IMG/VR virus record: IMGVR_UViG_3300031566_000083
Location: 1-45,629 of that record
From: a virus
Reading direction: 5' to 3' (one strand)
Length of the DNA: 45,629 nt
The notes below the pieces were generated by a model. It did not search any database. It had not been told where the DNA came from and saw nothing but the letters and a program-made list of their open reading frames with translations. Below, piece after piece: positions 3,681 to 45,629 of the stretch; the stretch's first letter is position 1; each line of letters starts with the position of its first letter. The position numbers and the translations under genes were made by a program.

Positions 3681-4745
3681 ATGCAAAGGAAGCTGCCGTG
3701 GGCGGACCCCCTGGCCGCACAAAACCTGAAGAGCGATTGGAACGCCACTGATTCTGCTGGCAAGCAAGCTCTTGCCGATAGCTGGGGAGTCCGCAAAGGA
3801 ACTCTAGCAAACTTCGTTATCAATGTCACTACCCTACCACCACCTGAGTCGGAACCTTACCCGCCGTTTAATATCACCCCCCCCCAGCATACCGAGAGGG
3901 CTACCGAGGACATGGGGTTGATTATCTCAGACTGGCATGTGGGGAAAAAGACCTTATCCTACAGTACGACGATTGCGCGACAACGCGCCGAGTATCTGAC
4001 AGAGAGGGTCCTGAATATCATCGACCTGCATCAACCAATTCGTAGGCTCCATGTATTCATGTTGGGAGACATGTCACAGGGCGAGAACGTCTATCAGGGG
4101 TCAAAGCTGGAAGAAGCCGAGATGGGGGCACGGCTGCAAATCAAACAGCACCTCGTCCCTGCCATGTCGCAACTCCTAGTGTCCTGCTCTCAAGTCGTCA
4201 AGAGTGTCGAGTCCTACGGAGTGCGCGGGAATCATGGCAAGTACGACAAGGCCGCTCCCTCTGGCACCAACTGGGACTTGTTCTTCTACGACTCCCTTGA
4301 ATCCAAGCTCGTCAACCAAGAACGCATCCACGTTCACCCATCGGAAACCTTTTATCAGTTGGTCGACATCATGGGTTTCCGATTCTTTATCATCCACGGC
4401 GACCAAGTGAATGCCACCAACGGTATCCCTCTGTTCGCCATGAGGCGGAAGATGCAGGACTGGTACGCTCACGTCGGGGGATTCCATTACGCCTATGCGG
4501 GGCACTTCCATAGCGCCGCCGCAGACCAGGTGAACTCGGTAGCCGATTATACCATTTGCCCGCCACTGGTGACGGGAGATTCGTGGGCGCTTGAGAAAGT
4601 TGGCCGCGCTTCCAAGCCGGTACAACTGTGCTTCGGGATTCACGGCAAGTATGGTAGGACTTGGGAATATAAGCTCTACGCTGACGAGAAGTACCTACCC
4701 GAACCATTCGAGGAACCAGAGGGCGAGATAGTCGTCTCTGCATAG
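3681..4745 (+). CDS. Calcineurin-like metallophosphoesterase with N-terminal HTH-like region
   Basis: 354 residues. All metallophosphoesterase motifs are visible in order: SDWH (D84, H86), LGD (D120), GNH (N174, H175), HGD (H229) and GHFH (H265, H267), the ligands of a two-metal centre that hydrolyses phosphodiesters or monoesters. Residues 20-50 (SAGKQALADSWGVRKG) look like a helix-turn-helix, as in some phage phosphoesterases. AGGAGG lies 7 bases before the ATG. It is the last gene of the rightward late block, before a terminator. The substrate (nucleic acid, cyclic nucleotide or protein) cannot be read from sequence. Confidence 0.9.
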   Translation: MQRKLPWADPLAAQNLKSDWNATDSAGKQALADSWGVRKGTLANFVINVTTLPPPESEPYPPFNITPPQHTERATEDMGLIISDWHVGKKTLSYSTTIARQRAEYLTERVLNIIDLHQPIRRLHVFMLGDMSQGENVYQGSKLEEAEMGARLQIKQHLVPAMSQLLVSCSQVVKSVESYGVRGNHGKYDKAAPSGTNWDLFFYDSLESKLVNQERIHVHPSETFYQLVDIMGFRFFIIHGDQVNATNGIPLFAMRRKMQDWYAHVGGFHYAYAGHFHSAAADQVNSVADYTICPPLVTGDSWALEKVGRASKPVQLCFGIHGKYGRTWEYKLYADEKYLPEPFEEPEGEIVVSA

Positions 4746-12444: not shown

Positions 12445-12732
12445 GTGAGCGAATACCGCCGAGGGGCAGACTTCGAGCGCAAGGTAGTCAATGACTACAA
12501 GGCTCGCAACTGGTACGCATCGCGGACCCCAGGAAGCAAAAGCCCCATCGACATCATCGCCTTTAGACTAGGTGAGGTCCACATCATTCAATGCAAGCTC
12601 ACGGGATTGATGACAAAGGCGGCGAAGGAACAGCTAAGACTCATGGCGCAGGAGAACGGGTTCCGAGCGTTCCTGTGCTGGAACAACAACGGCAAGATTG
12701 AGACAGAGGAGCTTGTGGAGGTAGAGGCATGA
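12445..12732 (+). CDS. Hjc-type Holliday junction resolvase / PD-(D/E)XK nuclease
   Basis: 95 residues. GADFERKVV near the start (catalytic Glu), then SRTPGSKSPIDIIAF (catalytic Asp) and HIIQCKLT (the E/Q-x-K element) match the archaeal Hjc-like branch of the restriction-nuclease fold; Gln replaces the usual Glu in E-x-K. It would cut four-way DNA junctions. The GTG start has GGGAGG at 11 bases and is reached by a mini-ORF from the previous gene. A RusA-like resolvase at 14476 makes a second candidate for the same job. Confidence 0.85.
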   Translation: MSEYRRGADFERKVVNDYKARNWYASRTPGSKSPIDIIAFRLGEVHIIQCKLTGLMTKAAKEQLRLMAQENGFRAFLCWNNNGKIETEELVEVEA

Positions 12733-15430: not shown

Positions 15431-15783
15431 AACAGTCTCCCATAAAGCACAGGGGGAAGGTGACAGCCCGCCGAGAAAGGGGTATGAAAAACTCAGCGCC
15501 GGCAGTATGCGTTCGCGCAGGTGGCTCGTGGTGTGGATGGGCAGGAGAGCGATGCGTAGGGGCATACTGTGAACTATGCGGCAGGGCTGGCTGGTGGTAT
15601 CCGCTGGCCCACATCATTGGACGTGGACAGTGCGGGCACGAGGAGCCTTGGAATCTAGCGAACCTGTGCCTTGCGTGCCATGACAGATTCGACCACGGGA
15701 CGGCGGAAGAGCGAGCGGCCACGAGGGAGAAATTACAGGCAATCGCCGCTCACGGGGCAGAGAAGAACGAGGCGATGAAGTGA
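15427..15783 (+). CDS. HNH nuclease-like protein
   Basis: 118 residues; AGGAGGG upstream of ATG. CELCGRAG, PLAHIIGRGQ, NLANLCLACHDRFDHG give the H...N...H metal site with paired Cys, as in HNH nucleases of the recombination-associated kind. Located with resolvase and methyltransferase genes, it could be a DNA-processing nuclease rather than a homing enzyme. Confidence 0.8.
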   Translation: MKQSPIKHRGKVTARRERGMKNSAPAVCVRAGGSWCGWAGERCVGAYCELCGRAGWWYPLAHIIGRGQCGHEEPWNLANLCLACHDRFDHGTAEERAATREKLQAIAAHGAEKNEAMK

Positions 15784-17555
15784 AGCTCTACTATCAAGAT
15801 AGTGCGGTGGAGATATGGCACGGCGATTGTCGTGACTGGGACGGTTCTGCTGATGTGATAGTAACGGACCCGCCGTATGGTTTGGAGTTCATGGGGAAGG
15901 AATGGGACAAGCTGCTTGTGAAGGACAGGCATGTTAACTATCCGAGTTGTCGTCACGCTCACGGGCCGAACGAGTACCGAGGGGGAATGGAGGCACAAGA
16001 ATGGCATCGGCAGTGGTGTGAAGCGATGCTCGGCAAGGCTGGCTGGCTGTTCGCCTTTGGAGGAACGAGGACGTGGCACAGGTTGGCGTGCGCGATTGAG
16101 GACGCAGGCTGGCAGTACAGGGACACAATCATGTGGCTGTACGGGCAGGGATTCCCGAAGGGGAAGAACAGCTTGAAGCCCTCCTATGAACCGATAATCG
16201 TAGCGCGGAAGTATGGGGACTTGGACATAGACGCGGCGAGGATTGGGACAAGTAAGAGTGCTCCTGCGTCACCAAGACAGGGCACCGACAGAATCTATGG
16301 CTCGTATGGGGCACAGGACACGAGCATGAGTGGATTCAACACATCCATAGGCCGCTGGCCTGCGAATCTAATACTGGACGAATATCTTGTGCCAGTAGTA
16401 CGTTTGATGTATAATACTCCTGAAGGTATTAGTACGGCCATAAGGGAGTATTTCAATGGTTACAGTCGAGTGCCGAGTGTGCGGGAAGTCATTTACAGTA
16501 GCACCAAGCAAGGCGCAAAGAGCCAAGTATTGCAGTCGGACGTGTTACGCAAAGTGGCTGAGTCAGAACAAGCGCGGGGAAGCACACCCGATGTATGGCA
16601 AGCACCACAGCCAAGCATCGTTGCAGAAGATGAGCGAGAAACAGACGGCACGAGCGATGCACGGGGCAAATCATCCTCTATTCAAGGGGGATTGGTTCAG
16701 TCGCGGCTATCACTATCTGAATGTCAACGCCCTGCCATCGCAACAAAAAGCCCTAGCGATTCAGATGCTTCCAGAACACCACATGGGGATACCAGAACAT
16801 CGGATAGTCATGGCGATGCACTTGGGCAGACCACTTGCCACGAGCGAGGTAGTACACCACAGGAACGGAATCAAGGACGACAATCGCATCGAGAACTTGG
16901 AAATGAAAGACCACTCGACGCACAAGATGAATCATATCGAGATACTAGAGGAACTTCGTTCTGCGCGAGCGGAGATAGACCGCTTGAAGTCCTTGATTGT
17001 GACGTGCCCGAAATGTGGCACAAGTATTTCGCACCCACTGGCATAGAAGTTCGCCACCCTGATTGTTCTGCGGCGATGCTGGATGAGCAGAGTGGGGAGA
17101 CGAAAGACAATCGCGGTCCGTCCGTGCAGCCTTCGCCAAAGATTGATTACACGGGATTGGGGGCGACCCCATTTCCTTGCGACACTCCATTCCACATAGG
17201 CGACATAGGCGGAGCCTCACGGTTCTTCTACTGCGCCAAGGCGTCGAAGGCCGAGCGCAATGCAGGGTGTGAAGGAATGGAGGCCGCCTATCAGCACAGG
17301 GGTAATGGATTCTCAGCCGCCTTATCGAATAGCAAGCTGCCAAGGGGTAACGACCATCCAACGGTAAAGCCCTTGAAGCTCATGGAATATCTGATAACGC
17401 TCTCTGGTGGACAAACGATACTCGACCCGTTCATGGGAAGTGGGACTACGTTGGTAGCCGCCAAGAGGCTAGGAAGGAAGGCCATAGGAATCGAGATTGA
17501 CGAACACTCGTGCGAGATAGCAGCGAACCGCTGTCGGCAGATGGTCTTACTGTAA
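15780..17555 (+). CDS. DNA (N4/N6) methyltransferase, beta-type, interrupted by a nested HNH gene
   Basis: 591 residues. Residues 1-200 hold motif IV TDPPYG (D30-Y33) and residues 547-591 hold motif I DPFMGSGT followed by GIEID, the DPPY-then-FxGxG order of beta-class amino-methyltransferases. Natural sequence runs to [11 protein letters not shown] (about 16386) and resumes at [11 protein letters not shown] (about 17070). The roughly 680 bases between are foreign: they encode an HNH endonuclease in another frame. The methyltransferase frame is still open across them, giving about 230 low-complexity residues within the target-recognition region. Activity may be lost or the insert tolerated. 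Confidence 0.88.
16388..16415 (+). promoter_or_regulatory. Promoter of the nested HNH gene
   Basis: A perfect -10 box TATAAT lies at about 16410-16415, 17 bases after TTGTGC. It sits inside the inserted segment, about 40 bases before the HNH start with its GGGAG site, so the endonuclease gene carries its own promoter. The -35 match is weak. Confidence 0.55.
16456..17046 (+). CDS. HNH homing endonuclease nested inside the methyltransferase gene
   Basis: 196 residues, in a different frame from the surrounding methyltransferase. Zinc ribbon ([14 protein letters not shown]), a RGYHYLNV strand, then [30 protein letters not shown] and H: an HNH_3-type core; helical tail and a closing CPKC. Same domain order as the insert in the 6463 gene. 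GGGAG stands eight bases before ATG. The non-coding flanks (about 70 and 20 bases) are too short for a typical group I intron, and no intein splice residues are evident, so a direct insertion is most likely. Confidence 0.88.
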
Positions 17556-19717: not shown

Positions 19718-19725
19718 TATATACT
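19697..19725 (+). promoter_or_regulatory. Strong promoter at end of early block
   Basis: TTGACA (19697-19702), 17-base spacer, TATACT (19720-19725): nearly consensus. The predicted start (about 19732) is the first base of a hairpin followed by a terminator, so it either makes a tiny RNA or is attenuated before the next gene. Confidence 0.75.
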
Positions 19726-19730
19726 CTGAC

Positions 19731-19784
19731 TGTGGGGCGAAGTACGCCCCACAGTGAGGCTCCCAGCCGGGGGCCTTTTCTTAT
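19731..19784 (+). ncRNA. Putative ~54-nt small RNA: two hairpins, the second a terminator
   Basis: Hairpin one: TGTGGGGCG / CGCCCCACA, loop AAGTA, nine perfect pairs (19731-19753). Hairpin two: GGCTCCC / GGGGGCC, loop AGCC, followed by TTTTCTTAT (19758-19784), an intrinsic terminator. A near-consensus promoter ends six bases upstream. It could be a regulatory RNA or a leader attenuator for the gene at 19812. Confidence 0.65.
19758..19784 (+). terminator. Intrinsic terminator of early block
   Basis: Seven-pair stem (one G-T pair) plus TTTTCTTAT. It also ends the preceding operon. The same tail TTTTCTTAT follows the terminators at 35239 and 43732. Confidence 0.85.
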
Positions 19785-19811
19785 AGGAGAGCCATCGAGT
19801 TCATATTCTCA

Positions 19812-24931: not shown

Positions 24932-25005
24932 TAAAGCTGGACTTCTGGCGCGAGGACGACGACATGACGGGGTTCACTACCGAGGGGTATTACATCAAGG
25001 AATGA
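24928..25005 (+). CDS. Possible very short ORF
   Basis: 25 residues from TTG overlapping the previous stop (LDFWREDDDMTGFTTEGYYI). It fills the gap before 25009 and its end holds AAGGA for the next gene. Weak support. Confidence 0.3.
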   Translation: MIKLDFWREDDDMTGFTTEGYYIKE

Positions 25006-25008
25006 GTG

Positions 25009-25215
25009 ATGGCAATAGGCACTTGCGGCCACGAGGTTTCATTAGACGAGGACTCTGTTCCTATGCCCGACTCTTGTTGGGATTACGAGGCGGACAGATT
25101 TGTGGATTGTATCTCGTATGGCGTGTACTGCCCTGAGTGCAAGAAGTTCTTTTCGTCAGAGATTCGCAAGGGGCGGAAGATGGAAAGAGAGTGGAAGAAG
25201 AAGGGGTTGCTTTGA
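25009..25215 (+). CDS. Small zinc-binding protein
   Basis: 68 residues; ATG at 25009. CGHEVSLDED at the start and YCPECKKFF later give C-x-H and CPEC ligands; tail is Lys-rich. A zinc-ribbon-like protein, function unknown. Confidence 0.65.
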   Translation: MAIGTCGHEVSLDEDSVPMPDSCWDYEADRFVDCISYGVYCPECKKFFSSEIRKGRKMEREWKKKGLL

Positions 25216-25237
25216 GGCCAGAGATTGAGGAGGTGTT

Positions 25238-25528
25238 ATGACAGAGGGAGTGCTAGCGATAGACATTCTGGACAGGCAGACAGTCACACCACAAAGACCT
25301 TTCTTTCTCACGGCGAACAAGGAACATTACAAGTGGGCCTGCCGGATGAACGCGCTTACAGGCAACTGTGTTGATGTGATTCCGCCAACCGAATACATAG
25401 ACGTGCCGTTCGAAGAAGGCGACGACGTTAGCGATGAAGTGATTTCCGCGATGAAGGCCGACTTTGGACAGATGGCGTGGGAATACTACGGGCTAGTTTT
25501 TCCCGTACCCGAGATTGAGGAGGGGTGA
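25238..25528 (+). CDS. Hypothetical acidic protein
   Basis: 96 residues; GAGGAGG precedes ATG. Contains FFLTANKEHYKWACRMNALTG and an acidic C-terminal half ending PVPEIEEG. Its last codons (GATTGAGGAGG) repeat the leader in front of the gene itself. Function unknown. Confidence 0.6.
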   Translation: MTEGVLAIDILDRQTVTPQRPFFLTANKEHYKWACRMNALTGNCVDVIPPTEYIDVPFEEGDDVSDEVISAMKADFGQMAWEYYGLVFPVPEIEEG

Positions 25529-25529
25529 T

Positions 25530-25990
25530 ATGACCGTCCTGTCCGAGTCGATGACTCGGGGTTCGAGAGCCACCCTGCGCCAAGATAGCGAGACAGGCGC
25601 GAGCGCAGGGCCGGGCCTCTTAGCTCACCTGCCAATGTGTAGGTGGAGTACGACCTTCGGAGACGGAGGTTGCATTATGAAGGGCTGGCTGAGTGCTGGC
25701 CCAGTCACAGCATGACCGGACATGGCTGTGGCGGCTGCGCTGGCCGTACAGCGCGACCTCCCCTGCGTCTTCGGATTCAGGGCGCACACGGGCGGCGGTT
25801 CCATACCGCTACCCGTGTTGCATCTTGACATCACGCGCTGTGATTCCAAGTGTGTTGCTTCCCTGATAGAAACACCGACACTTCGCAACAAGTGGTGGGG
25901 TTAGTTCATGGAGAACAAGACCACAACTGCGTCCTTCGGGACGTGGCCGACGACAGGCTAGGCGTGGGTTCGATTCCCGCACCCCACCTT
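25530..25990 (+). ncRNA. Large structured non-coding RNA candidate with tRNA-like 3' end
   Basis: About 460 bases hold back-to-back strong hairpins: CCGAGTC/GACTCGG (25543-25559); CCCTGCGC/GCGCAGGG (25573-25610); CTCACCT/AGGT-G-GAG (25624-25648); a nine-pair stem capped by GAGA (25651-25672); GCTGT/ACAGC (25725-25752); CACGGG-x-GGCGG / CCGCT-x-CCCGTG with a seven-base loop (25786-25818); ATCAC/GTGAT near 25830; then the tRNA-like fold at 25895-25987. Base pairing is far denser than in neighbouring coding DNA. Size, ornateness and the tRNA-like part recall the large phage RNAs GOLLD and ROOL, but I could not test membership. A 61-codon ORF with a good ribosome site overlaps the first part. Confidence 0.6.
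25895..25987 (+). ncRNA. tRNA-like structure with non-canonical middle
   Basis: Acceptor stem GTGGGGT/ACCCCAC (7 pairs), D-type arm GTTC-ATGGA-GAAC, and T-type arm GTGGG-TTCGATT-CCCGC are all present and correctly ordered; 93 bases. The 46 bases between D and T arms do not make a normal anticodon arm: the candidate hairpins CGTCC-TTCG-GGACG (25930-25943) and TGGCC-GACGACA-GGCTA (25944-25960) lack U33 and a usable anticodon. It is either a degenerate or class-II-like tRNA or a tRNA mimic ending the large RNA. Confidence 0.6.
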
Positions 25991-26163
25991 CAATACATAG
26001 CTTTCCTATGGGTTGAGCGAGATAAGGTCAAGGAATCTAGCACTATCTTGCATTTGGAATGCAAATCTGCACGGAAACCGCCCTACGAAACAAGGCGAAT
26101 CCTTTACTAACGCAACCCTTTGTCCCAGTCTGGTCAAGTCCAGTTTAGATAGGAGGTCAAGTT
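25991..26163 (+). other. Non-coding stretch with small hairpins
   Basis: Between the tRNA-like fold and the next gene. TTGCATT-TGG-AATGCAA (26048-26064) is a seven-pair hairpin and CTGG/CCAG (26130-26143) a short one. No credible ORF. It may be the tail of the large RNA or its processed spacer. Confidence 0.4.
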
Positions 26164-26454
26164 ATGGGAAAGTCAGAAGCGCAGATGATTCTTTGGGTTC
26201 AGTTCGGCAACGCTATCAATTGCCTGAGACAGGAGCTTGTAGGGAAGCTCTGCACGATTGTTGACGGCGCGATTCTTGACGACAGGCAGTGCAAGGCCGT
26301 CAAAGACATGGTGAAGGAGGCTTCCTACGGTGCGATTGGCGACTTTGGGAAGGATTGGGAACGCCTGCTCTATTTCTTTGCCAAGCAAGAGGGGTGCGGC
26401 GACATCTTTGAGGAAGAACACCTCAAGTACCTAGCCCGCAAGTTCGCCACATAG
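26164..26454 (+). CDS. Hypothetical helical protein between two structured RNAs
   Basis: 96 residues; ATAGGAGG with good spacing before ATG. Helical, with QFGNAINCLRQELVGKL, CKAVKDMVKEASYGAIGDF and EEEHLKYLARKF. No family recognised. Its position between two structured elements and just before the large terminase gene makes an RNA-binding or packaging role worth considering, without direct evidence. Confidence 0.65.
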   Translation: MGKSEAQMILWVQFGNAINCLRQELVGKLCTIVDGAILDDRQCKAVKDMVKEASYGAIGDFGKDWERLLYFFAKQEGCGDIFEEEHLKYLARKFAT

Positions 26455-26469
26455 TCACAGACCAGACTG

Positions 26470-26669
26470 GGAAACTTTATTAGCGCAGGCCGTTATTTAA
26501 GGGTGACAACCTAGCGCATGGGGCGCGACGGATAAGTGGCGAAGAAGTCCGGACGTGGCCCTCGCTGCCCAGCGAGGTGTAGCCTGCCCTCCTAGCCCCA
26601 TCCCGCCAACCGAGCGTTAGGGGCCGAGGAATCGGCCCCCGCTCCATTTCAAGGGTTGAAAGCCCTTTG
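26470..26669 (+). ncRNA. Second structured RNA element, upstream of large terminase
   Basis: Nested long-range stems: CCTAGCGC (26510-26517) with GCGTTAGG (26614-26621, one G-T pair), and directly inside it ATGGGGC (26518-26524) with GCCCCAT (26595-26601). Inside lie CGGA/TCCG (26529-26551) and CCTCGCT-GCCC-AGCGAGG (26560-26577). Outside follow GGGGCCGA-GGAA-TCGGCCCC (26620-26639, GNRA loop) and AAGGG/CCCTT (26651-26667) right before the terminase ATG. It could be a leader that controls the terminase, a free RNA, or a packaging element. Confidence 0.6.
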
Positions 26670-26671
26670 TT

Positions 26672-28171
26672 ATGACCAAGCAAGAGAAACCGAATCAAAT
26701 AATACTGTCGTGGCAAGACCCACGAGTGTTTCTGAAGTATGTCTGGGTTGAAGACCCGGAGCATCACAGGGCGACGAAGTTTGAGAAGTGGCCCCACCTA
26801 GTAGACCTTTGGAACACGATACTTGAGAACAAGGACGTTGCGATACTGAAGGCCCGACAGGTAGGCGTGTCGTGGACGTTGGCCTCGTACGCCTGCTGGA
26901 AGCTAGTCACCAAGTCCTATTCAAGGACATTGGTTATCTCAGTTGGCGAGGAGGAAGCCAAGTATTTCCTCTCCCATGTGAAGTTCATCTACAGGAACCT
27001 GCTGAGGGACACAGGGCTTGGCGACATGATTGTGTCCCTGCCCTTAGAGCCTGACTCGGCAGAGGTTATCGGGATTATCTGGGACAAGAACCTCGATACG
27101 AGGTCACAGGTGATAGCCCTGCCTTGTACGGGAACAGCGGGAACGGGATATACGGCGACAGACGTTATCTGCGACGAGTACGACAAATGGAGGTCAACCG
27201 AGAAGGGACTGACGATACAGGAGAAGAACTACTCCGCATTGAAGCCGCCTGTTGACAGGACGGGGGGCCACTTCATCGTCTGCTCGACATCCGAGATTTT
27301 GGAACCTGACTCGTTCTTCAAGAAGCTGTTTCTCGGGGAGGACAACGGGTTTGTCAAGAGGTTCTATGGCGTAGACAAGCACCCGAAGTTTTCCGAGGAG
27401 TGGTTCGAGATTCTTTGCCAGCAATCTAAGGGCAAGGAATGGCAGAGGAAGCAGGACTATCCGAGGACGATTGAGGAGGCGCTTAGCCCTCCAGGTTCGG
27501 AGAGGATATTCACAGGAGCCGGTCAGTTGGCGCAAGAGGCCAAGTACGACACCTGGATTCAGAACAGGTGGACGTACACCTTGCAGCCGTTCGTTCCGGG
27601 CTGGAGATATGTAGCAGGAGCGGATGTTGCGTCAGGGCACGGGGCCGACTACTCGGTACTCAGCATCATAGGGAACAGGGGGCTTGACTCCAAGGTTGTA
27701 GCGGTCGTCAGGTCGAAGGAGTTGACGACCTACCAGTTCGCACAAGAGATATATCAGACCTGCGAGAAGTACAACTTCCCGCTGCTGGCAGTCGAGAGGA
27801 ACGCAATGGGAGTCTCCGTAGTAGACGACCTTGTGAGGATGAAGTATTCGAAGTTGTACTTCAAGGACGACAACGCGAGGAAGAACGGGAAGCCGGGAGT
27901 AGACACAGGCCAGAGCGCGAGGATGCAGGGGCCTAGCGAGGAAGGGGAGAAGTGGATTTGGAAGTTGGCCGAGGCCATTAACGGCGGGACATTGAAAACG
28001 ACGTTTGGGCCGCAGATAGCTGAGCTACAGGACTTCTTCTGGATTGACGGCAAGGCACAGGCGAGGGGGCACGACGACACGGTGATGTCACTCGCCATAG
28101 CGAACCTGTTGCTTGCCAAAGCGAGGACATACGAGGCAATGCCAAAGGTAAGGGTCACATATTCTAAATGA
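26672..28171 (+). CDS. terL: Terminase large subunit
   Basis: 499 residues. ATPase: LKARQVGVSW (Walker A-like, K60-S67), DVICDEYDKW (Walker B, D168-E169), then the VCSTSE coupling motif. Nuclease: VAGADVASGHGADYSV (first Asp), LLAVERNAMG (Glu), and HDDTVMSLAIAN (last Asp), the RNase H-like layout. It pumps DNA into the prohead and cuts it. No Shine-Dalgarno precedes the ATG; instead a hairpin does, so the upstream structured RNA may control its translation. ATGA overlap with the portal gene. Confidence 0.95.
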   Translation: MTKQEKPNQIILSWQDPRVFLKYVWVEDPEHHRATKFEKWPHLVDLWNTILENKDVAILKARQVGVSWTLASYACWKLVTKSYSRTLVISVGEEEAKYFLSHVKFIYRNLLRDTGLGDMIVSLPLEPDSAEVIGIIWDKNLDTRSQVIALPCTGTAGTGYTATDVICDEYDKWRSTEKGLTIQEKNYSALKPPVDRTGGHFIVCSTSEILEPDSFFKKLFLGEDNGFVKRFYGVDKHPKFSEEWFEILCQQSKGKEWQRKQDYPRTIEEALSPPGSERIFTGAGQLAQEAKYDTWIQNRWTYTLQPFVPGWRYVAGADVASGHGADYSVLSIIGNRGLDSKVVAVVRSKELTTYQFAQEIYQTCEKYNFPLLAVERNAMGVSVVDDLVRMKYSKLYFKDDNARKNGKPGVDTGQSARMQGPSEEGEKWIWKLAEAINGGTLKTTFGPQIAELQDFFWIDGKAQARGHDDTVMSLAIANLLLAKARTYEAMPKVRVTYSK

Positions 28172-29976
28172 GCAAGCCGACTGTAGACGAGATAAAGGAG
28201 ATAGCGGAGCAGAGAGGGGCCACGGGAACAGGTGGCTACTGGACAGAACTGCACTCTCTTCAGAAGGAATGGCAGAACTATTATCTTCTGAAGTACAAGA
28301 TTGCCCTTCCGAAAGGTATCAACGCAGAGCAGTTCACTCCGAGGATTGCTTACGACTGGGTATCAGTCGGCAGGAACAACTATCTCTTGGACAATCCGTG
28401 CGTGGAAGTGACGCCGAGAGACGAGAATGAGAAGGCGAAGAACGATGCAGGCGCGATGGAGACGTTCGGCACGTCCTTCCTCAGAAGGAACGTTGCCAAG
28501 ATTCGAGACAACGCGACGCTTCAACTGGCAATCGGGGCCGCTGCGTACAAGCTGTCCCTGAACGAAGCCTACATAGCAGACGATTCGAGAATCAAGGGGC
28601 TACAGAAGGGGTGGAAGGCACTTGAGGATGACGACAGAAAGGCCATTCAAGACCTTGCGCTCTCCGAGTATCCGATAAGAGTTGAGGCCCCACACTTCGT
28701 CAATCTCTATCCGTCTCCCCATTGGGTATCCGACTCTCAGCCCTACGACATGATAGAGGCTTTCGAGATGACCGTCTCAGAGGCCAAAGGTCTTTGTCGC
28801 ATGAACGGCTGGTCGTGGAAGCCCAAGGATGACAAGAGCGAGAAGGACAAAATCAAGTACCTTGTCTATTACTCCCCCGAGTGGAGATGTGTCCTGATAG
28901 ACGACAAGCCTGTGTTCAGGCCCTATGTCTGTCCCAATCCTCTCGGCTTCTGTCCCTATATCGTGTTCGATGCTGGCATGGGCATCCCCTCATACGAGGG
29001 TGACGAGACGGACAGGTTCAGGGGCATCATCGCGCCGAACAAGGGGATGATTGACATGGTGACGAAAACCATGTCTCAGATGACGTACTCCAACGACAGG
29101 TTCGCGTTCCCGAAGCTGATGGCGAAGCTGGAGAACGGCGTGTCGGTGGAAGAGATTATGAAAGAGGTCGGTGAAGAACTCGACCTCAATCCTGAGAAGT
29201 TGGGCTTCGAGCCTTTCGGCATGGAACTCAGGTATCTGGAAACCACAGGACAGGGGCAGGTGCAGTTGATACAGCACCTTGCGACCCTGCTCTCAATGGC
29301 GTCTCCGCCTACGGGGATGTCCGGCGGGCAGATGTCGGGAGTCTACTCTGGACAATACGCTTCGATGAGGGTCGCGCAGGAGAGGACGTGGTACAAAGAC
29401 CCGTTCAAGATTCACGAGGACGCGCTGGCTTCCTTGGCAGGTAGGGCGTTCCAGCTCATCGACCAGGTAATCAAGCATCCCATCTCAGTGAAGGTATCGG
29501 CTGTCAGGAAGGGGGAGCCTTCCTCGGTAACAAAGGTCGGCCCCGACAATATCAGGAAATACTACGACTGCACCGTCAGACTGCTGGCGGACAGTCCCGA
29601 GGCGTCGGACATCAAGAAGCACCTCGGGATGCTGACCTATCAGGCGGGCATCATGGACCACGAATCGACCTTGACTGACTACTACGACAAGTCCAAGGCG
29701 GAGGCGGAGAAGATTGCCGATTCTGTCATGGTGGAGCAGGTGATTCTGAAGAGTCCGACGATACAGATGCTTCTCGCTGAGAAGGCTGCAAGGGCGTCGG
29801 GACAGGATGACCTGGCCGACGCGGTGAAGATGCTTGGCATGACGCAGGAGCACGGCGGTTCGAGGGTTCATCCAGGGGCCAGTTCGGAGCCTGCGAGTAA
29901 ATCGGTCACGCAACAGAAAAGGCCCCAGAACGTCGAACCCGCACCGAGTCCTACGGAGATACAGACAGGGCCATGA
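28168..29976 (+). CDS. Portal protein
   Basis: 602 residues, following the large terminase with ATGA overlap, the standard place. It has a helical N-terminal part (WQNYYLLKYKIALPKGINAEQ), wing-like alpha/beta core, GIIAPNKGMIDMVTKTMSQMTY, and a C-terminal segment with the barrel-type helices and a Pro/Ser-rich tail. A ring of twelve such subunits forms the DNA entry channel. Identification rests on size, position and sequence style. Confidence 0.88.
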   Translation: MSKPTVDEIKEIAEQRGATGTGGYWTELHSLQKEWQNYYLLKYKIALPKGINAEQFTPRIAYDWVSVGRNNYLLDNPCVEVTPRDENEKAKNDAGAMETFGTSFLRRNVAKIRDNATLQLAIGAAAYKLSLNEAYIADDSRIKGLQKGWKALEDDDRKAIQDLALSEYPIRVEAPHFVNLYPSPHWVSDSQPYDMIEAFEMTVSEAKGLCRMNGWSWKPKDDKSEKDKIKYLVYYSPEWRCVLIDDKPVFRPYVCPNPLGFCPYIVFDAGMGIPSYEGDETDRFRGIIAPNKGMIDMVTKTMSQMTYSNDRFAFPKLMAKLENGVSVEEIMKEVGEELDLNPEKLGFEPFGMELRYLETTGQGQVQLIQHLATLLSMASPPTGMSGGQMSGVYSGQYASMRVAQERTWYKDPFKIHEDALASLAGRAFQLIDQVIKHPISVKVSAVRKGEPSSVTKVGPDNIRKYYDCTVRLLADSPEASDIKKHLGMLTYQAGIMDHESTLTDYYDKSKAEAEKIADSVMVEQVILKSPTIQMLLAEKAARASGQDDLADAVKMLGMTQEHGGSRVHPGASSEPASKSVTQQKRPQNVEPAPSPTEIQTGP

Positions 29977-31086: not shown

Positions 31087-34000
31087 ATGGCTTGGTTTGA
31101 CGATTCGAGAATAAAAGACCCCTCATATCTGAATTACAAGACCTTCGCTCAAGAGGCGAAGCAAGGGTTGGAAACAGCCACGTCTCAGGCCAGACAGAGG
31201 GCGATTCAAGAGCACCAACAGCAAGAGATAGCGCAAGTCTATGAGGCTCGGGCTTTGGGTAGGATGCTAGGGAATCGCAAGATGAAGAAGATGTTGTCTG
31301 ACAGGAACGTCCAGGTGTGGATGCAGCAACAGCAGCAGGCCGAGAGACAGGCTGAGTGGGACGCTCAGGCCAAGCAGGGCGAGATGTGGCGCAAGCTGAG
31401 GGAGTCGGCAATAACGAAACTTGCTGATGACCTTGACTTCTACCAAGACCCAACAGAGAGAGAACGGGCGATTGTTGCCAAGACGTACGAGCTTGCGGCT
31501 CTTGAATACCAGAAGTCAGAACAGTGGGATTTGGCGGCGGAGTTCAAACGCAGGGCAGAGATTGCAGGCGGGTTCCAACAGCCTACTGAGCAGGACTATG
31601 CCTCTGGCCTTATCAAGCAAAACGTGGCAGGCGTTCCGCCAACCGAAGGCGAGATGGGGAAGCCCGAGAAGTTTGTCAGGAAGGCGGGCGAAGTCTTGAA
31701 GACAGCAGGCGAAGGGTTGCTCCGCCACACGTTTGAGGACTGGTCAATCATGGTCAACATCGCCCAGATGTTGGCTAAGAAGGGAGAGCTTGACGAGAAC
31801 GAGCAGGCGTTCCTTGACGCTATCCATAAATCCAGTGCTGAGTTTCAGGCGAAGCAAGGGCCTGAAGATGTGATGATGCACGAGGCTCCCGAGGTTTCCG
31901 ACGAAGTGTACGAGGCATACAACAATCTCGGACTCGGGCGGCAGATAGCAGGAGAGGTTACGTATCCGCTGGCGTGGTTGCCCATTTTGCAGGGCGGCGC
32001 TATGGGTGCGAGAGCGAGCATAGGAGCTAGAACCGCAGTCGGAACGGGCGCGTTGGACAAGGCGTTAGTCGAGTTCTCAAAGGGAACCGCGAGACTTGCG
32101 CTACTCCCATTGGAAGGGATTGAGAGGTTGATTGCCGCTCCGTTCAAGGCAGCAGGCAAGGCTATCAGCAAGTCTCAGGCTTCCAAGCTGGCTGCAAAGG
32201 CGAAAGCCAACCCTGAGAAGATTGAAGGGGTATTGCAGAAGGTCGCCCGACAGGAGCCGCTTGGCGCTGACGACATAGCCAAAGCGCAGCAATTCGACGA
32301 CGACTTGGGCAAGGTCATAGCAGAAGCCGTGCCAGAGCCTAAACCCGTCGCAGCGACGGAATTAGGGGCCACTGGGGGGATTGCAGAGAAACCTATCATC
32401 GGTGGCGGGGAAGCCTACGACCCGATAAGGGACATACTCAACTTCGGGGATGTGGACAAGACAGTTGCAAAGTTGTATCCACAGTCCAATGAGGGCGCGG
32501 TTATGCGGCTCATCGGGAAGATTCCTGGGGTTGGGCCAGATATAGTCAGGCGGATTGACCCGTCAAAGACGCCACGGGCGACCATTGAGGCGCGAGCGGT
32601 ACAGGAATACGCCTCGGTAATGAACCATCGCATCAACAGCATGGCGAACGGCTGGAAGGCGAACATCCAGCGAATTGCTGACGCCAAGTTCCCTGGGGCA
32701 TCTGCCACAAAGCACCTTCAGATTGAAGGTGGCGTAGTCAAGAACCTTGGCGCGGTGAAGCCAAAAGACCCGAAGGCTTCAATGGCGATTGGCGACATTC
32801 TTGAGAAGCCCGACAACTACATCCTTGACGAGCCGACACAGGCGTTAGCCGACTTCTGGAAGCTCCTGAGGTCTAACGCTGTCAGGGAGTATGAGAAGAG
32901 GGGGATGAAGTTCCCTGCTGCGTTCCGCTTCCCTCGAATGGTGAAGGGGGCGCACGGCGAGACTATCGGCTTCCCGACTGTCAGGCTGAAGAAGCCCAGA
33001 AGTTATGAGACCATGATGCAGGGCATTGAGGCGGGGGTTGAGTATGTAGACGACCCTGTTCATGTCATGCAGTCATTCATTGACGAGACTACACGGATTA
33101 TTGCAGCCAACGACTTTCAGGCAGTCGTGAAGGCGATGGGCAAGACGGCTTCCGAGCGTATTCCACCGAGCATCAAGAACTGGCGCACCGCTGCTGCCAA
33201 CGCCTTGAAGGACATCAATTACTCTATTTCTACCGTTCGGAGGATGGCCGTTACGCCCAGAGGCCCAGAGAGCAACGCTCTCCTGCAATCACAGCAGGAA
33301 CGCTCTCTCGCATTACTTGACCAGAGGGCTCCACAACTTGCCGAGAGGATACGGGCGATGGTGGGGATGCCCGCCGAGCAGAGGACTAAAGAAGCCACGC
33401 TGATAGTCAAGGAACTTCAGGCGATGGTGAAGCCTGCTAGGGCCGAGGCTGTGAAGGCAAGGTTCGCGTACTCAAAGGCTTTGAGGTACGCACGAGGGCC
33501 GAAGCTCGGAGCGGGAGAGGCAGGCACCAAGCATCCCGCGTTCACGGGCAGAATCTTCTCTGAAGAGACGGCGCGAACATTGAATGAACTACTCCCGTCC
33601 AGAGCGGGCAAGTTCACCAACACTACCAGACAGGTTGCCGAAGCGCTCCGTACCCTGGTAGCGAACCTTGACTTCTCGGCATGGTTCTATCAAGGTCAAG
33701 CCGTTCTGTCACGCAGACCTGACCTGTGGGCAAAGTCGGTCGGCGTGTCAATAAAGTCATTTCTGAAGCCCGAGACGGCTACTAGATGGTTTGCGCAAGA
33801 GAAGCACGTAGCGTTCCTGTCCCGTCATCCTGACGTTGTGCAGGGCACCCACGAGTTCTTTGCCGGTAGAACAGCACTAGAGAAGATACCGAAGGTCGGC
33901 AAGGCCATCGGGAAGGTTATCGAGCCGTTCGAGCGAGCGTTTGAGACGTTCGGTGACGCGGCGAGACTACTCATGGGGGAAGCTCTTGAGCCTGGGTGGG

Positions 34001-35040
34001 TGAAGGCGGGGGCGATAGACCAACTACCTACGTACATCAACCGCATGACGGCGGTAATGAACACGAAGGCACTAGGAATATCTGGCGCACAGAGGGCTAT
34101 AGAGTCCTCGTGGGTGGCTTTCGCCCCGAGGTTCATGCGAGCGTCACTGGCATATCTTGGAATGGCCTTTGAGAAGGGCGTTGTCGGGAACGAGGCTAGA
34201 CGAACACTGGCACAGATGTTGGCTGGCGGAACGACTGCATATGTCGGGTACTGTGAAGCACTCGGGCAAGAACCTAAACTCGACATCTCAAAGCCGGACC
34301 GCTATACGGTTATGGTTGGGAACAGGCGTATCGGCATTGGCGGATTTATGATGTCCTTCCTCGGATTGGTTGGTGACATCAGCGCCTCGGTTATGAGTGA
34401 AAGAGGCAACGAGCCGATGGACTTGCTCAACTTCCACCCCATAGACGCGAGAAAGACGAATCCCATAATCAAGTACATATCCAGCAGAACGAGCATCCTG
34501 ACATCGCTTGTAACCGAAGGGGCGATACAGCAGGACTTCCTCGGTTATCCACTAGAAGACCCCGAGGACTGGGCGCGGTGGCTGATAGTCGAGCACTCTC
34601 TGCCGATTGCGGTACAGAGCCAGTTTGCCAGCGACTTTGAGGAGCCGCCGACCAACAGGATTGCTGTCTTTGCGTCAGAGCAGTTAGGCTTCCGAGTCTA
34701 TCCTGACGAACCGTTCTATGAACTGGCTGACCAGTACGCGCAGCAGGTCTACGGCAAGGACTGGTCGGATTTGTACAAGGCCAACAAGTCAGGTTCCTAT
34801 TCCAAGTCCGAACAGCAGGAGAAGTTGATTGAGCACTTCCCCGACTTGAATAAGGCGTATGAGGAATACAAGCCGAAGGCCACGAAGCGATGGCAGACGG
34901 CACACAACATGCTTCCAGACGAGGGCGCGGTGAAGGACTACTACGCAAACCAGCTATTCCACAAGAAGTGGGACGACCTGACAAAGGAAGAGAAGCAGAA
35001 GGCGGAAGCCTATCGCGTATACGACGAAGCTACAAAATAG
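31087..35040 (+). CDS. Giant virion-associated protein, possible ejection protein with polyvalent-type C-terminal domain
   Basis: 1317 residues. N-terminal 120 residues are Gln/Arg-rich coiled coil (RQRAIQEHQQQEIAQVYEA); residues 300-440 are Ala-rich amphipathic; residues 800-1230 contain the LNELLPSRAGKF, WVAFAPRFMRASLAYLG, GIGGFMMSFLGL and WLIVEHSLP stretches that resemble large polyvalent-protein-associated domains of phages (LPD38 type). With a portal upstream and capsid downstream, and no tape measure, an internal head/ejection protein is most likely. Exact role is inference. Confidence 0.7.
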   Translation: MAWFDDSRIKDPSYLNYKTFAQEAKQGLETATSQARQRAIQEHQQQEIAQVYEARALGRMLGNRKMKKMLSDRNVQVWMQQQQQAERQAEWDAQAKQGEMWRKLRESAITKLADDLDFYQDPTERERAIVAKTYELAALEYQKSEQWDLAAEFKRRAEIAGGFQQPTEQDYASGLIKQNVAGVPPTEGEMGKPEKFVRKAGEVLKTAGEGLLRHTFEDWSIMVNIAQMLAKKGELDENEQAFLDAIHKSSAEFQAKQGPEDVMMHEAPEVSDEVYEAYNNLGLGRQIAGEVTYPLAWLPILQGGAMGARASIGARTAVGTGALDKALVEFSKGTARLALLPLEGIERLIAAPFKAAGKAISKSQASKLAAKAKANPEKIEGVLQKVARQEPLGADDIAKAQQFDDDLGKVIAEAVPEPKPVAATELGATGGIAEKPIIGGGEAYDPIRDILNFGDVDKTVAKLYPQSNEGAVMRLIGKIPGVGPDIVRRIDPSKTPRATIEARAVQEYASVMNHRINSMANGWKANIQRIADAKFPGASATKHLQIEGGVVKNLGAVKPKDPKASMAIGDILEKPDNYILDEPTQALADFWKLLRSNAVREYEKRGMKFPAAFRFPRMVKGAHGETIGFPTVRLKKPRSYETMMQGIEAGVEYVDDPVHVMQSFIDETTRIIAANDFQAVVKAMGKTASERIPPSIKNWRTAAANALKDINYSISTVRRMAVTPRGPESNALLQSQQERSLALLDQRAPQLAERIRAMVGMPAEQRTKEATLIVKELQAMVKPARAEAVKARFAYSKALRYARGPKLGAGEAGTKHPAFTGRIFSEETARTLNELLPSRAGKFTNTTRQVAEALRTLVANLDFSAWFYQGQAVLSRRPDLWAKSVGVSIKSFLKPETATRWFAQEKHVAFLSRHPDVVQGTHEFFAGRTALEKIPKVGKAIGKVIEPFERAFETFGDAARLLMGEALEPGWVKAGAIDQLPTYINRMTAVMNTKALGISGAQRAIESSWVAFAPRFMRASLAYLGMAFEKGVVGNEARRTLAQMLAGGTTAYVGYCEALGQEPKLDISKPDRYTVMVGNRRIGIGGFMMSFLGLVGDISASVMSERGNEPMDLLNFHPIDARKTNPIIKYISSRTSILTSLVTEGAIQQDFLGYPLEDPEDWARWLIVEHSLPIAVQSQFASDFEEPPTNRIAVFASEQLGFRVYPDEPFYELADQYAQQVYGKDWSDLYKANKSGSYSKSEQQEKLIEHFPDLNKAYEEYKPKATKRWQTAHNMLPDEGAVKDYYANQLFHKKWDDLTKEEKQKAEAYRVYDEATK

Positions 35041-35221: not shown

Positions 35222-35240
35222 ATTATACACCCGAAGTCAA
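35222..35240 (-). promoter_or_regulatory. Promoter-like motif for the leftward membrane protein
   Basis: On the minus strand TTGACT TCGGGTG TATAAT. It matches 15 of 19 bases with 43112-43130 (TTGACA GAGGGTG TATAGT). The two boxes are only seven bases apart, so if active it is not a standard sigma70 site; the perfect TATAAT may act as an isolated -10. Confidence 0.45.
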
Positions 35241-35265
35241 GGGCCTTTCGAGGCCCTTTTCTTAT
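35239..35265 (+). terminator. Intrinsic terminator
   Basis: AAGGGCCT-TTCG-AGGCCCTT, eight perfect pairs with a UUCG loop, then TTCTTAT. It separates the portal/giant-protein genes from the scaffold-capsid genes on the rightward strand. Confidence 0.88.
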
Positions 35266-35977: not shown

Positions 35978-36835
35978 ATGGCACTAACTACCACTACCAC
36001 CCTTTCCGATACCATCGAAACCGTCCTGGAATCTGCTCGATTCACGGCAAAGCACAAGGCCATCATGGCGAACCTTGTGTGGCACATCGACAGGACAAAG
36101 AGTAAGAGTCCTGTTGCCAACGTGCCGTACTTCGGGACCGTAGCGGCCTATAGCCTGACTGAAGGGGTTGACATGGAGAACCCTCAGTCTATGGCTGATA
36201 CGAATGTTCCGATCACCCCCGCTGAGGTGGGGGCGCAGATTATGCTGACGGACAAGGTGGTTCGGGACGACAGTGAAGACCTGCTTCGCGCTGCTGGTCG
36301 CATCCTCGGTGATGCGATGGAGCTGAAGCGCGACCAAGACCTGCTCGGCCAGTTGGCCGATGGCAACACCGACCTCGGTTCCGCAGGCACGGCAACTCTT
36401 GGATTCCTCGCAGCCGCATACGCGACTCTGGCGGGCGTTCCCGCCCCGAAGCCATACGTGTGCTGCTTGCATCCCTACCAGATTCTTGACATCGTTGACA
36501 TCTTCACCCCCCTCATTCCCGCTGCGACCTATGCTGCGGGTTCAGGCGGCGGACTTGAGGACGACATTCTCCGCAACTACATGGTTGGGAGACTGTTCGG
36601 AGTGGACATCATCGAGGAAGGGAACATCGGTACGACCAACGGGGACGGCGGCATGTTCTCCCGTGGCGAAGGCGGCGGCATCATCCTTGCGACCGGCAAG
36701 GACTGGGCCGTAGAGACGGAGAGGGACGCTTCCCTCCGCGCCACTGAACTGAACATAGTCGGTGAATACGGCGTGGGCGAGTACCTCTCAACGTATATCG
36801 TCGAGTTGAGTATAGACTGCACCGCGCCCGCCTAA
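35978..36835 (+). CDS. Major capsid protein (HK97-like)
   Basis: 285 residues, AGGAGG upstream. N-terminal TLSDTIETVLESARFTAKHK, then SLTEGVDMENPQSM, a long spine-type helix region (DLLRAAGRILGDAMELKRDQDLL), and a C-terminal IILATGKDWAVETERDASLRAT are characteristic of a family of HK97-fold capsid proteins in which a DxxLRATELNIVGEYGV segment closes the fold. It sits after a scaffold-type gene. Small for a capsid protein, consistent with a compact head. Confidence 0.9.
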   Translation: MALTTTTTLSDTIETVLESARFTAKHKAIMANLVWHIDRTKSKSPVANVPYFGTVAAYSLTEGVDMENPQSMADTNVPITPAEVGAQIMLTDKVVRDDSEDLLRAAGRILGDAMELKRDQDLLGQLADGNTDLGSAGTATLGFLAAAYATLAGVPAPKPYVCCLHPYQILDIVDIFTPLIPAATYAAGSGGGLEDDILRNYMVGRLFGVDIIEEGNIGTTNGDGGMFSRGEGGGIILATGKDWAVETERDASLRATELNIVGEYGVGEYLSTYIVELSIDCTAPA

Positions 36836-43714: not shown

Positions 43715-43731
43715 ACACAGATTCAAGAGGG

Positions 43732-43759
43732 AAGGGGGCCTATGGAGGCCCCTTTTCTT
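43732..43759 (+). terminator. Intrinsic terminator
   Basis: GGGGCC/GGCCCC stem extended by G-T and two A-T pairs, followed by TTTTCTTA. It ends the secreted-protein unit; the next ribosome site (GGAG) starts right after it. Confidence 0.82.
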
Positions 43760-43769
43760 ATGGAGCGCA

Positions 43770-45196: not shown

Positions 45197-45629
45197 TGCC
45201 TAGCATCCTGTTCGAGCATAAGGGAGAATTGTACCCGTTCGAGTTGAAACAAGGCGCAAAGAACGAGGACGGCACCCGCCAGAGATTCTACAGCGTCTCC
45301 GATAGGAAGCTGGTCGGCAATCACATTACCACCGATACTGCCGACTACAGCAAAACAGACCCCGAGGAAATTGGGCTGCGAGTCAGTCAGAGCGATTGGC
45401 GCGAAGGCTTCCAGGACGACTTCTTCGACAATGCGAGGAAGTACGCCCACTCCGTCAACTGCGACGCTCGGTTCAAGGGAAAGGTCATGCTGTCGCCCAA
45501 AAGACAGACGAAGATTTCCTTTCCCGCGTCCACAACGACATCCATTCCCGTAGCGAACGGCACGTTTGACAGCTACAACGCGACTAGTAAGCATCCTGAT
45601 TGCTGGACAGTTACTACCACAGGCGACGG
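45196..45629 (+). CDS. Virion structural protein, 3' truncated at window end
   Basis: 144 codons from ATG (TAATG overlap) to the window edge. SILFEHKGELYPFELKQGAK, then SQSDWREGFQDDFFDNARKYAH and a Ser/Thr-rich end with FDSYNATSKHPDCWTV, as in receptor-binding or appendage proteins with a carbohydrate-binding-like module. It may be the N-terminal part of the protein truncated at position 1; joining the ends directly leaves the frame off by one base. Confidence 0.75.
   Translation, partial: MPSILFEHKGELYPFELKQGAKNEDGTRQRFYSVSDRKLVGNHITTDTADYSKTDPEEIGLRVSQSDWREGFQDDFFDNARKYAHSVNCDARFKGKVMLSPKRQTKISFPASTTTSIPVANGTFDSYNATSKHPDCWTVTTTGD

Follow-up and report, generated by a model that had tools for sequence, protein, structure and literature searches.

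Among the structured noncoding RNAs of phages, GOLLD combines a conserved 3′ region with a variable 5′ region, its members often exceeding 800 nt, and ROOL is a phage and prophage RNA with pseudoknots, loop-loop contacts and a position near tRNAs (PMC12286853). Both often lie near tRNAs and carry kissing loops, and their function is unknown (PMC12286853); tRNAs can lie in the GOLLD linker. Phage tRNAs, for their part, escape anticodon nucleases through mutations of the anticodon loop (PMC10264068), and other phages evade retrons and further defences by producing tRNAs (PMC11555353). Here we compare these systems with a phage region that, judged from its sequence, very probably encodes a new functional RNA.

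The window, by which we mean the whole stretch of DNA analysed, is a single IMG/VR virus record of 45,629 bases from a divergent tailed phage, in which a large terminase, a portal and a major head protein were matched. The RNA region sits in a same-strand cluster of small genes upstream of the packaging genes, and its 5′ end is uncertain, with a possible start near 25490, within the last part of the preceding gene. The features of the window used below are as follows.

25529-26163, + strand: noncoding gap between genes 25238-25528 and 26164-26454, upstream of the large terminase (26672)
25520-25828, + strand: structured RNA (fold z −4.8 for 25520-25830; covariance-model match at 25706-25833)
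25651-25672, + strand: hairpin of 9 bp with a GAGA (GNRA) loop, from the minimum free energy (MFE) fold and the sequence
25682-25702, + strand: hairpin of 8 bp with loop UGAGU, from the MFE fold and alignment
25733-25758, + strand: P3-like hairpin with an 8-layer stem (one C-A mismatch) and the 10-nt loop UGGCCGUACA, from exhaustive covariance-model alignment
25761-25782, + strand: H1, conserved hairpin, CCCUG/CAGGG with a UC-UUCG-GA apex, present in all three phages
25784-25821, + strand: H2, conserved hairpin, GC(A/G)-CACGGG...CCCGUG-bulge-(U/C)GC, pairing kept despite changes
25894-25988, + strand: tRNA-like module, from ARAGORN, Rfam and the unconstrained MFE fold
26672-28171: large terminase
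28168-29976: portal
35978-36835: major head protein

No Rfam family matched the window at the gathering score, and at E ≤ 10 the interval 25000-27000 and the surroundings of both homologous RNAs described below returned nothing but a weak tRNA-Sec match. More specifically, the models for GOLLD, ROOL and tmRNA, which the initial annotation had named as checks, remained unmatched in these scans, and tRNA-Sec stayed below its gathering score. The RNA resembles GOLLD in being a structured phage RNA with a conserved 3′ part, a variable 5′ part and a tRNA-type neighbour, but it has no covariance-model match, is 2-4 times shorter, and carries its tRNA-like module outside the core and in one of three members. 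ROOL, with its loop-loop contacts and its position near tRNAs, is likewise close in kind to this RNA, which differs from it in the missing model match, the shorter length and the lack of evidence for oligomers.

Homologous RNAs were found in two other phages. One of them is a syntenic relative, IMGVR_UViG_3300009168_000031 (G001), found by a portal search (portal 51% identical), whose contig ends overlap by 123 bases and which shares a 33-nt stretch with the window RNA. A search pattern of 28 fixed bases taken from this stretch, run against 2.9 million viral contigs, matches only G001 and IMGVR_UViG_3300031565_006229 (L009), a contig of 4714 bases whose portal belongs to another family (phrog_10963) and is unrelated to that of the window. 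The L009 RNA matches the window RNA at 92% over 50 nt (E 3e-14); with the G001 RNA it aligns in two stretches, at 91% over 33 nt (E 5e-6) and at 85% over 39 nt (E 2e-4). When the phages were compared all against all, L009 showed no convincing similarity to the window or G001 outside the RNA, in either DNA or protein, and its low-E tblastn matches all fall on the interval of the RNA, spread over several frames and both strands, which is the pattern of DNA similarity. Furthermore, a covariance model was built from the RNAs of G001 (L006) and L009, its only match in 277 kb being window 25706-25833 (E 2.7e-11). The RNA measures 200-400 nt in the three phages, the smallest being about 200 nt, and the genes downstream of the three RNAs are unrelated to one another. 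The phage and plasmid collections yielded no convincing DNA similarity to the window RNA, and a 21-nt match in E. coli genomes was set aside as chance. Searches for further relatives by protein (terminase, portal, capsid and a 1317-aa protein, as pair alignments) returned G001 only, and a relaxed 16-base pattern of the 3′ domain matched 12 viral and 103 genome stretches, with no new member once the stem was required.

Several observations concern the genomes as a whole. The genes at window ends 1 and 45629 adjoin each other in G001 (L005 16690-17284), so that the window probably represents a circularly permuted and nearly complete genome, cut open between two genes that are adjacent in the relative. 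Since the terminases of the window (26672-28171) and G001 (L008 3275-4651) look unrelated beside portals that are about 51% identical, the terminase gene has probably been exchanged in the course of the divergence of these two syntenic phages. The 1317-aa protein at window 31087-35040 has a G001 counterpart at 64% identity; neither PHROG nor Pfam gave a match for it, and it has no relative among 50,697 phage records. Matches to an N6/N4 DNA methylase at 15780-17555 fall into two separate stretches, suggesting that the methylase domain contains a large insertion. At window 19718-19790, 35225-35260 and 43725-43765, three strong hairpins run into TTTTCTTAT, as is typical of bacterial intrinsic terminators, and are partly conserved at the DNA level with G001; the window phage thus appears to use hairpin and T-run terminators in other parts of its genome (near 19740, 35240 and 43740). 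The hints as to the host conflict: a match to Pfam Hjc (archaeal Holliday junction resolvase, 12445-12732), an exonuclease (3681-4745) with its nearest relatives in haloarchaeal tailed viruses, and the L009 portal (L009 1903-3303), nearest to Methanoculleus viruses, would point to archaea, whereas the hairpin-T-run terminators would point to bacteria. Just upstream of the RNA homologue in G001, L006 19186-19330 is a second dense noncoding structured stretch, with perfect 8-9 bp hairpins (z −2.7), and begins with CUAGCUUC like the other RNA. In the window, the noncoding stretch 26455-26671 before the terminase gene holds a long fold closed by 7 bp (AUGGGGC...GCCCCAU) and a strong CUCGCU/AGCGAG hairpin, and could be another RNA or a packaging site.

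The core of the RNA family is the 3′ double hairpin H1-H2 (window 25761-25821), common to all three phages. In G001 and L009, the RNA starts with hairpin P1, followed by P2, P3 and the H1-H2 domain, with inserts that differ in length between the two. Here the P1 loop UUCCUAGCA can make nine pairs with the 10-nt P3 loop UGCUAGGG(G/A)U; these pairs hardly vary, and the predicted contact is conserved rather than proven by covariation. In the pair alignment of the two RNAs, from which the long L006 inserts were left out by hand, 95% of the cells are paired and six P2/P3 pairs are changed on both sides, compared with 38-46% paired and 0-1 two-sided changes in a control with partners shifted by 1-3 columns. 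The H2 pair 25786-25819 is A-U in the window and G-C in the other two phages, and further one-sided changes in H2 between the window and its relatives keep the pairing; G001 has about 75 bases inserted inside this hairpin. The covariance alignment from related phage contigs, which the initial annotation had named as a check, has thereby yielded two-sided changes in P2 and P3, both from the two relatives, and the A-U/G-C exchange in the 3′ domain conserved across phages; drawn from three members only, this covariation comprises few events. The 5′ part of the window RNA aligns only weakly with that of the relatives, and the 9-bp loop-loop contact was sought in it but not found. Its P3-like hairpin directly precedes the conserved 3′ domain in a geometry that matches P3 of both relatives, and no clear partner for its loop was found within the window. 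Tentatively, the hairpin at 25651-25672 corresponds to a hairpin of nine layers in the relative, at around L006 19612-19640, and that at 25682-25702 to the relative's 8-bp hairpin with loop UGCGU, which comes after a similar CA(U/C)UAUG(A/G)A stretch.

The dense folding and strong hairpins described in the initial annotation were recovered. The 476 nt from 25520 to 25995 have an MFE of −215.7 kcal/mol (z −3.34, 1 of 100 shuffles as good), the 311-nt core 25520-25830 reaches the z of −4.8 given above, and the reported GNRA and UUCG-type loops are present in the sequence as GAGA at 25660-25663 and UUCG at 25770-25773 and 25935-25938. The extent given there, 25530-25990, needs revision: the RNA consists of a conserved core at about 25705-25828 and the structure upstream of it, and the tRNA-like module is separate, about 65 nt away. 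Folding energy by itself is weak evidence and would not prove a functional RNA, because no other 150-nt tile of the window has a raw energy as low as the one at 25651 in this region, yet the z of that tile, −2.35, is not extreme. As proof it was rejected, given that other window tiles, coding ones included, show stronger z values. The strongest folding excess of the window (z −8.8) lies at 45301-45450, within a coding region conserved with G001.

The last 93 bases were originally described as acceptor, D-like and T arms without a normal anticodon arm, and both the unconstrained MFE fold of the 95 bases at 25894-25988 and ARAGORN agree. The fold comprises an 8-bp acceptor (25894-25901/25981-25988), a D arm of 4 bp with GG in its loop (25904-25916), a UUCG hairpin of 6 bp in place of the anticodon arm (25929-25944), a variable-type arm of 4-5 bp with a 7-nt loop (about 25945-25959) and a T arm of 5 bp with the canonical loop UUCGAUU (25964-25980). 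The module has no encoded CCA and no usable anticodon loop; no anticodon arm with a 7-nt loop and U33 was found in it, the only 7-nt loop outside the T arm being GACGACA. ARAGORN reports 25894-25989 as tRNA-???, and neither ARAGORN nor Rfam gave a tmRNA match with a tag reading frame. With a single ARAGORN call among 200 Markov copies of the window, 9.1 Mb in all, a tRNA resemblance by chance is unlikely (about 0.005 by this control), with no relative to support the module. The best match in the Rfam tRNA clan is tRNA-Sec (RF01852; 28.7 bits, E 0.0046, below the gathering score of 47), with which the module shares the 8+5 bp acceptor/T stack, the D arm and the canonical T loop, but in which a UUCG-capped hairpin does not replace the anticodon arm; a UCA loop is missing from the module. 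Like phage tRNAs with altered anticodon loops (PMC10264068, PMC11555353), it is a phage-borne tRNA-type molecule for which the usual decoding is perhaps not needed; those tRNAs keep a normal anticodon arm with point changes (PMC10264068), whereas here the arm is replaced. That such whole-arm replacement is an extreme form of escape from anticodon nucleases is speculation.

The module is absent from both homologous RNAs, and H2 is immediately followed by the start of a protein gene in G001 and L009. Because the relatives lack it, the module is, by this comparison, a local addition in the window phage and not a family trait, and what defines the family is H1-H2 together with the 5′ part, not the tRNA mimic. 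Of the original proposal that a large RNA ends in a tRNA-like structure, the tRNA-like fold stands, while its being an integral part of the RNA is not supported. The module may be linked to the RNA through a shared transcript and processing. At somewhat short of an even chance, the last 95 bases are instead a plain tRNA gene, decayed or with a small insertion, and unrelated to the adjoining RNA: nothing is abnormal in the acceptor, D and T arms, ARAGORN proposes a tRNA-Arg with a 7-nt intron when introns are allowed, 25944-25960 forms an arm of 5 bp with a loop of 7 nt, and the two relatives have no module. However, the proposed anticodon stems are poor and GACGACA has an A where U33 is needed; on these grounds the module was rejected both as an intron-containing tRNA and as one with an ordinary anticodon arm. 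A plain tRNA would leave the RNA core untouched.

Other explanations of the core itself have to be weighed against a functional RNA. The absence of a convincing protein, noted from the start, is confirmed by a codon model trained on the window genome, in which the open reading frames (ORFs) in 25529-26163 score −0.27 to +0.06 and the flanking genes 0.42 and 0.50; in its calibration, 80-codon stretches of true genes had a 5th percentile of 0.12, and wrong frames a mean of −0.28 and a 95th percentile of −0.06. An ordinary protein-coding stretch, formed by the 61-codon ORF 25643-25828 or its neighbours, has next to no probability. No stop interrupts its frame across H1-H2 in either the window or L009, and in both the frame ends at the same aligned position, but the ORF scores −0.27, as wrong frames do, and in G001 the frame reads into the long insert. 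Over 71 aligned bases, the overlapping ORF frame shows one synonymous and eight non-synonymous codon changes while base pairs are kept, and no synonymous excess was found in any frame of either strand. The initial annotation would have given up the RNA if pairs failed to covary and an ORF were conserved with synonymous changes; the outcome favours the RNA, and the coding reading was rejected on codon scores and substitution pattern. A cis-acting leader, whose fold would cover the ribosome-binding site of the following gene and control translation of that gene, is unlikely, but was kept because this site is predicted to be covered wholly in L006 and partly in L009. In both, the Shine-Dalgarno sequence and start codon lie within about 25 nt after H2, and the Shine-Dalgarno sequence is paired in the predicted ensemble (unpaired probability ~0.01 in L006, 0.16-0.53 in L009). 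The window core, however, has no directly following gene, the next one starting at 26164 with the tRNA-like module in between; the three RNAs precede three unrelated genes rather than one gene or gene family; and such length and ornament would be unusual without a conserved regulated gene.

The initial annotation had left the choice between a GOLLD or ROOL member and a new class. A new class is favoured by the lack of any Rfam match, and a divergent member of these ornate phage RNAs (RNA cages) is very improbable, in spite of the shared setting in a phage with a tRNA-like neighbour, the loop-loop contact, and a 3′ part more conserved than the variable 5′ part, as for GOLLD (PMC12286853). Neither the window nor either homologue matches in Rfam, and the supposed similarity in size does not hold, since the members have 200-400 nt and not 500-800, short of the 700-800 nt or more expected of GOLLD, which often exceeds 800 nt (PMC12286853). 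A role in DNA packaging would recall the phi29 packaging RNA (pRNA), likewise a structured, phage-encoded RNA with loop-loop contacts in a packaging neighbourhood, and the RNA does lie upstream of the terminase in the window and G001 and of the portal gene in L009. Against this, the Rfam scans gave no packaging-RNA match, the packaging protein is a terminase large subunit and not a phi29-type ATPase, G001 has no terminase matching that of the window, and the L009 portal is of another family. The pRNA is known only with phi29-type motors, and we regard a packaging role as extremely doubtful. It is also rather improbable that the RNAs form a horizontally spread class that self-assembles through palindrome-bearing loops, with a tRNA-mimic decoy or tether added in the window phage; palindromes do occur in the loops (CUAG in the two relatives, GGCC and GUAC in the window), and a UUCG-capped mimic, were this true, could tether tRNA-handling enzymes without being cut by anticodon nucleases.

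Comparison of the three sequences demonstrates homology to two phage RNAs, compensatory changes in the predicted stems and no protein. On this basis, we modestly favour a new family of structured phage noncoding RNA that probably acts in trans and is excised from a longer transcript. Partner, excision and action in trans are inferred here. The RNA would be transcribed as part of the small-gene and packaging-region transcript and then cut out, a step suggested by the finding that no terminator-like site follows on the + strand (25491-26707). Action in trans is suggested by the lack of relationship among the downstream genes and by the window, where no gene directly follows the RNA. The near-invariant H1-H2 double hairpin may serve as the contact surface for a partner, with the 5′ stems setting the shape of the RNA, aided by the loop-loop contact in the two relatives. 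The neighbourhood of the RNA yielded no protein that all three phages share, so a conserved phage protein is a less likely partner than a host factor or the RNA itself. In the window phage, the lack of a terminator-like site after the RNA makes the tRNA-like module most plausibly a signal for 3′ processing and stability: cleavage by RNase P at 25893/25894 would free the 3′ side of the RNA, and the module, its normal anticodon loop missing, would be unable to decode.

Few large structured RNAs are known from phages, and what they do is not understood. The family described here is compact, with its smallest member at about 200 nt, and is the sole convincing similarity found between otherwise unrelated phages, which points to strong selection or to a mobile element. 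Its small size allows the RNA to be synthesized in vitro and used as bait for its partner, so that the role of structured phage RNAs becomes directly testable.
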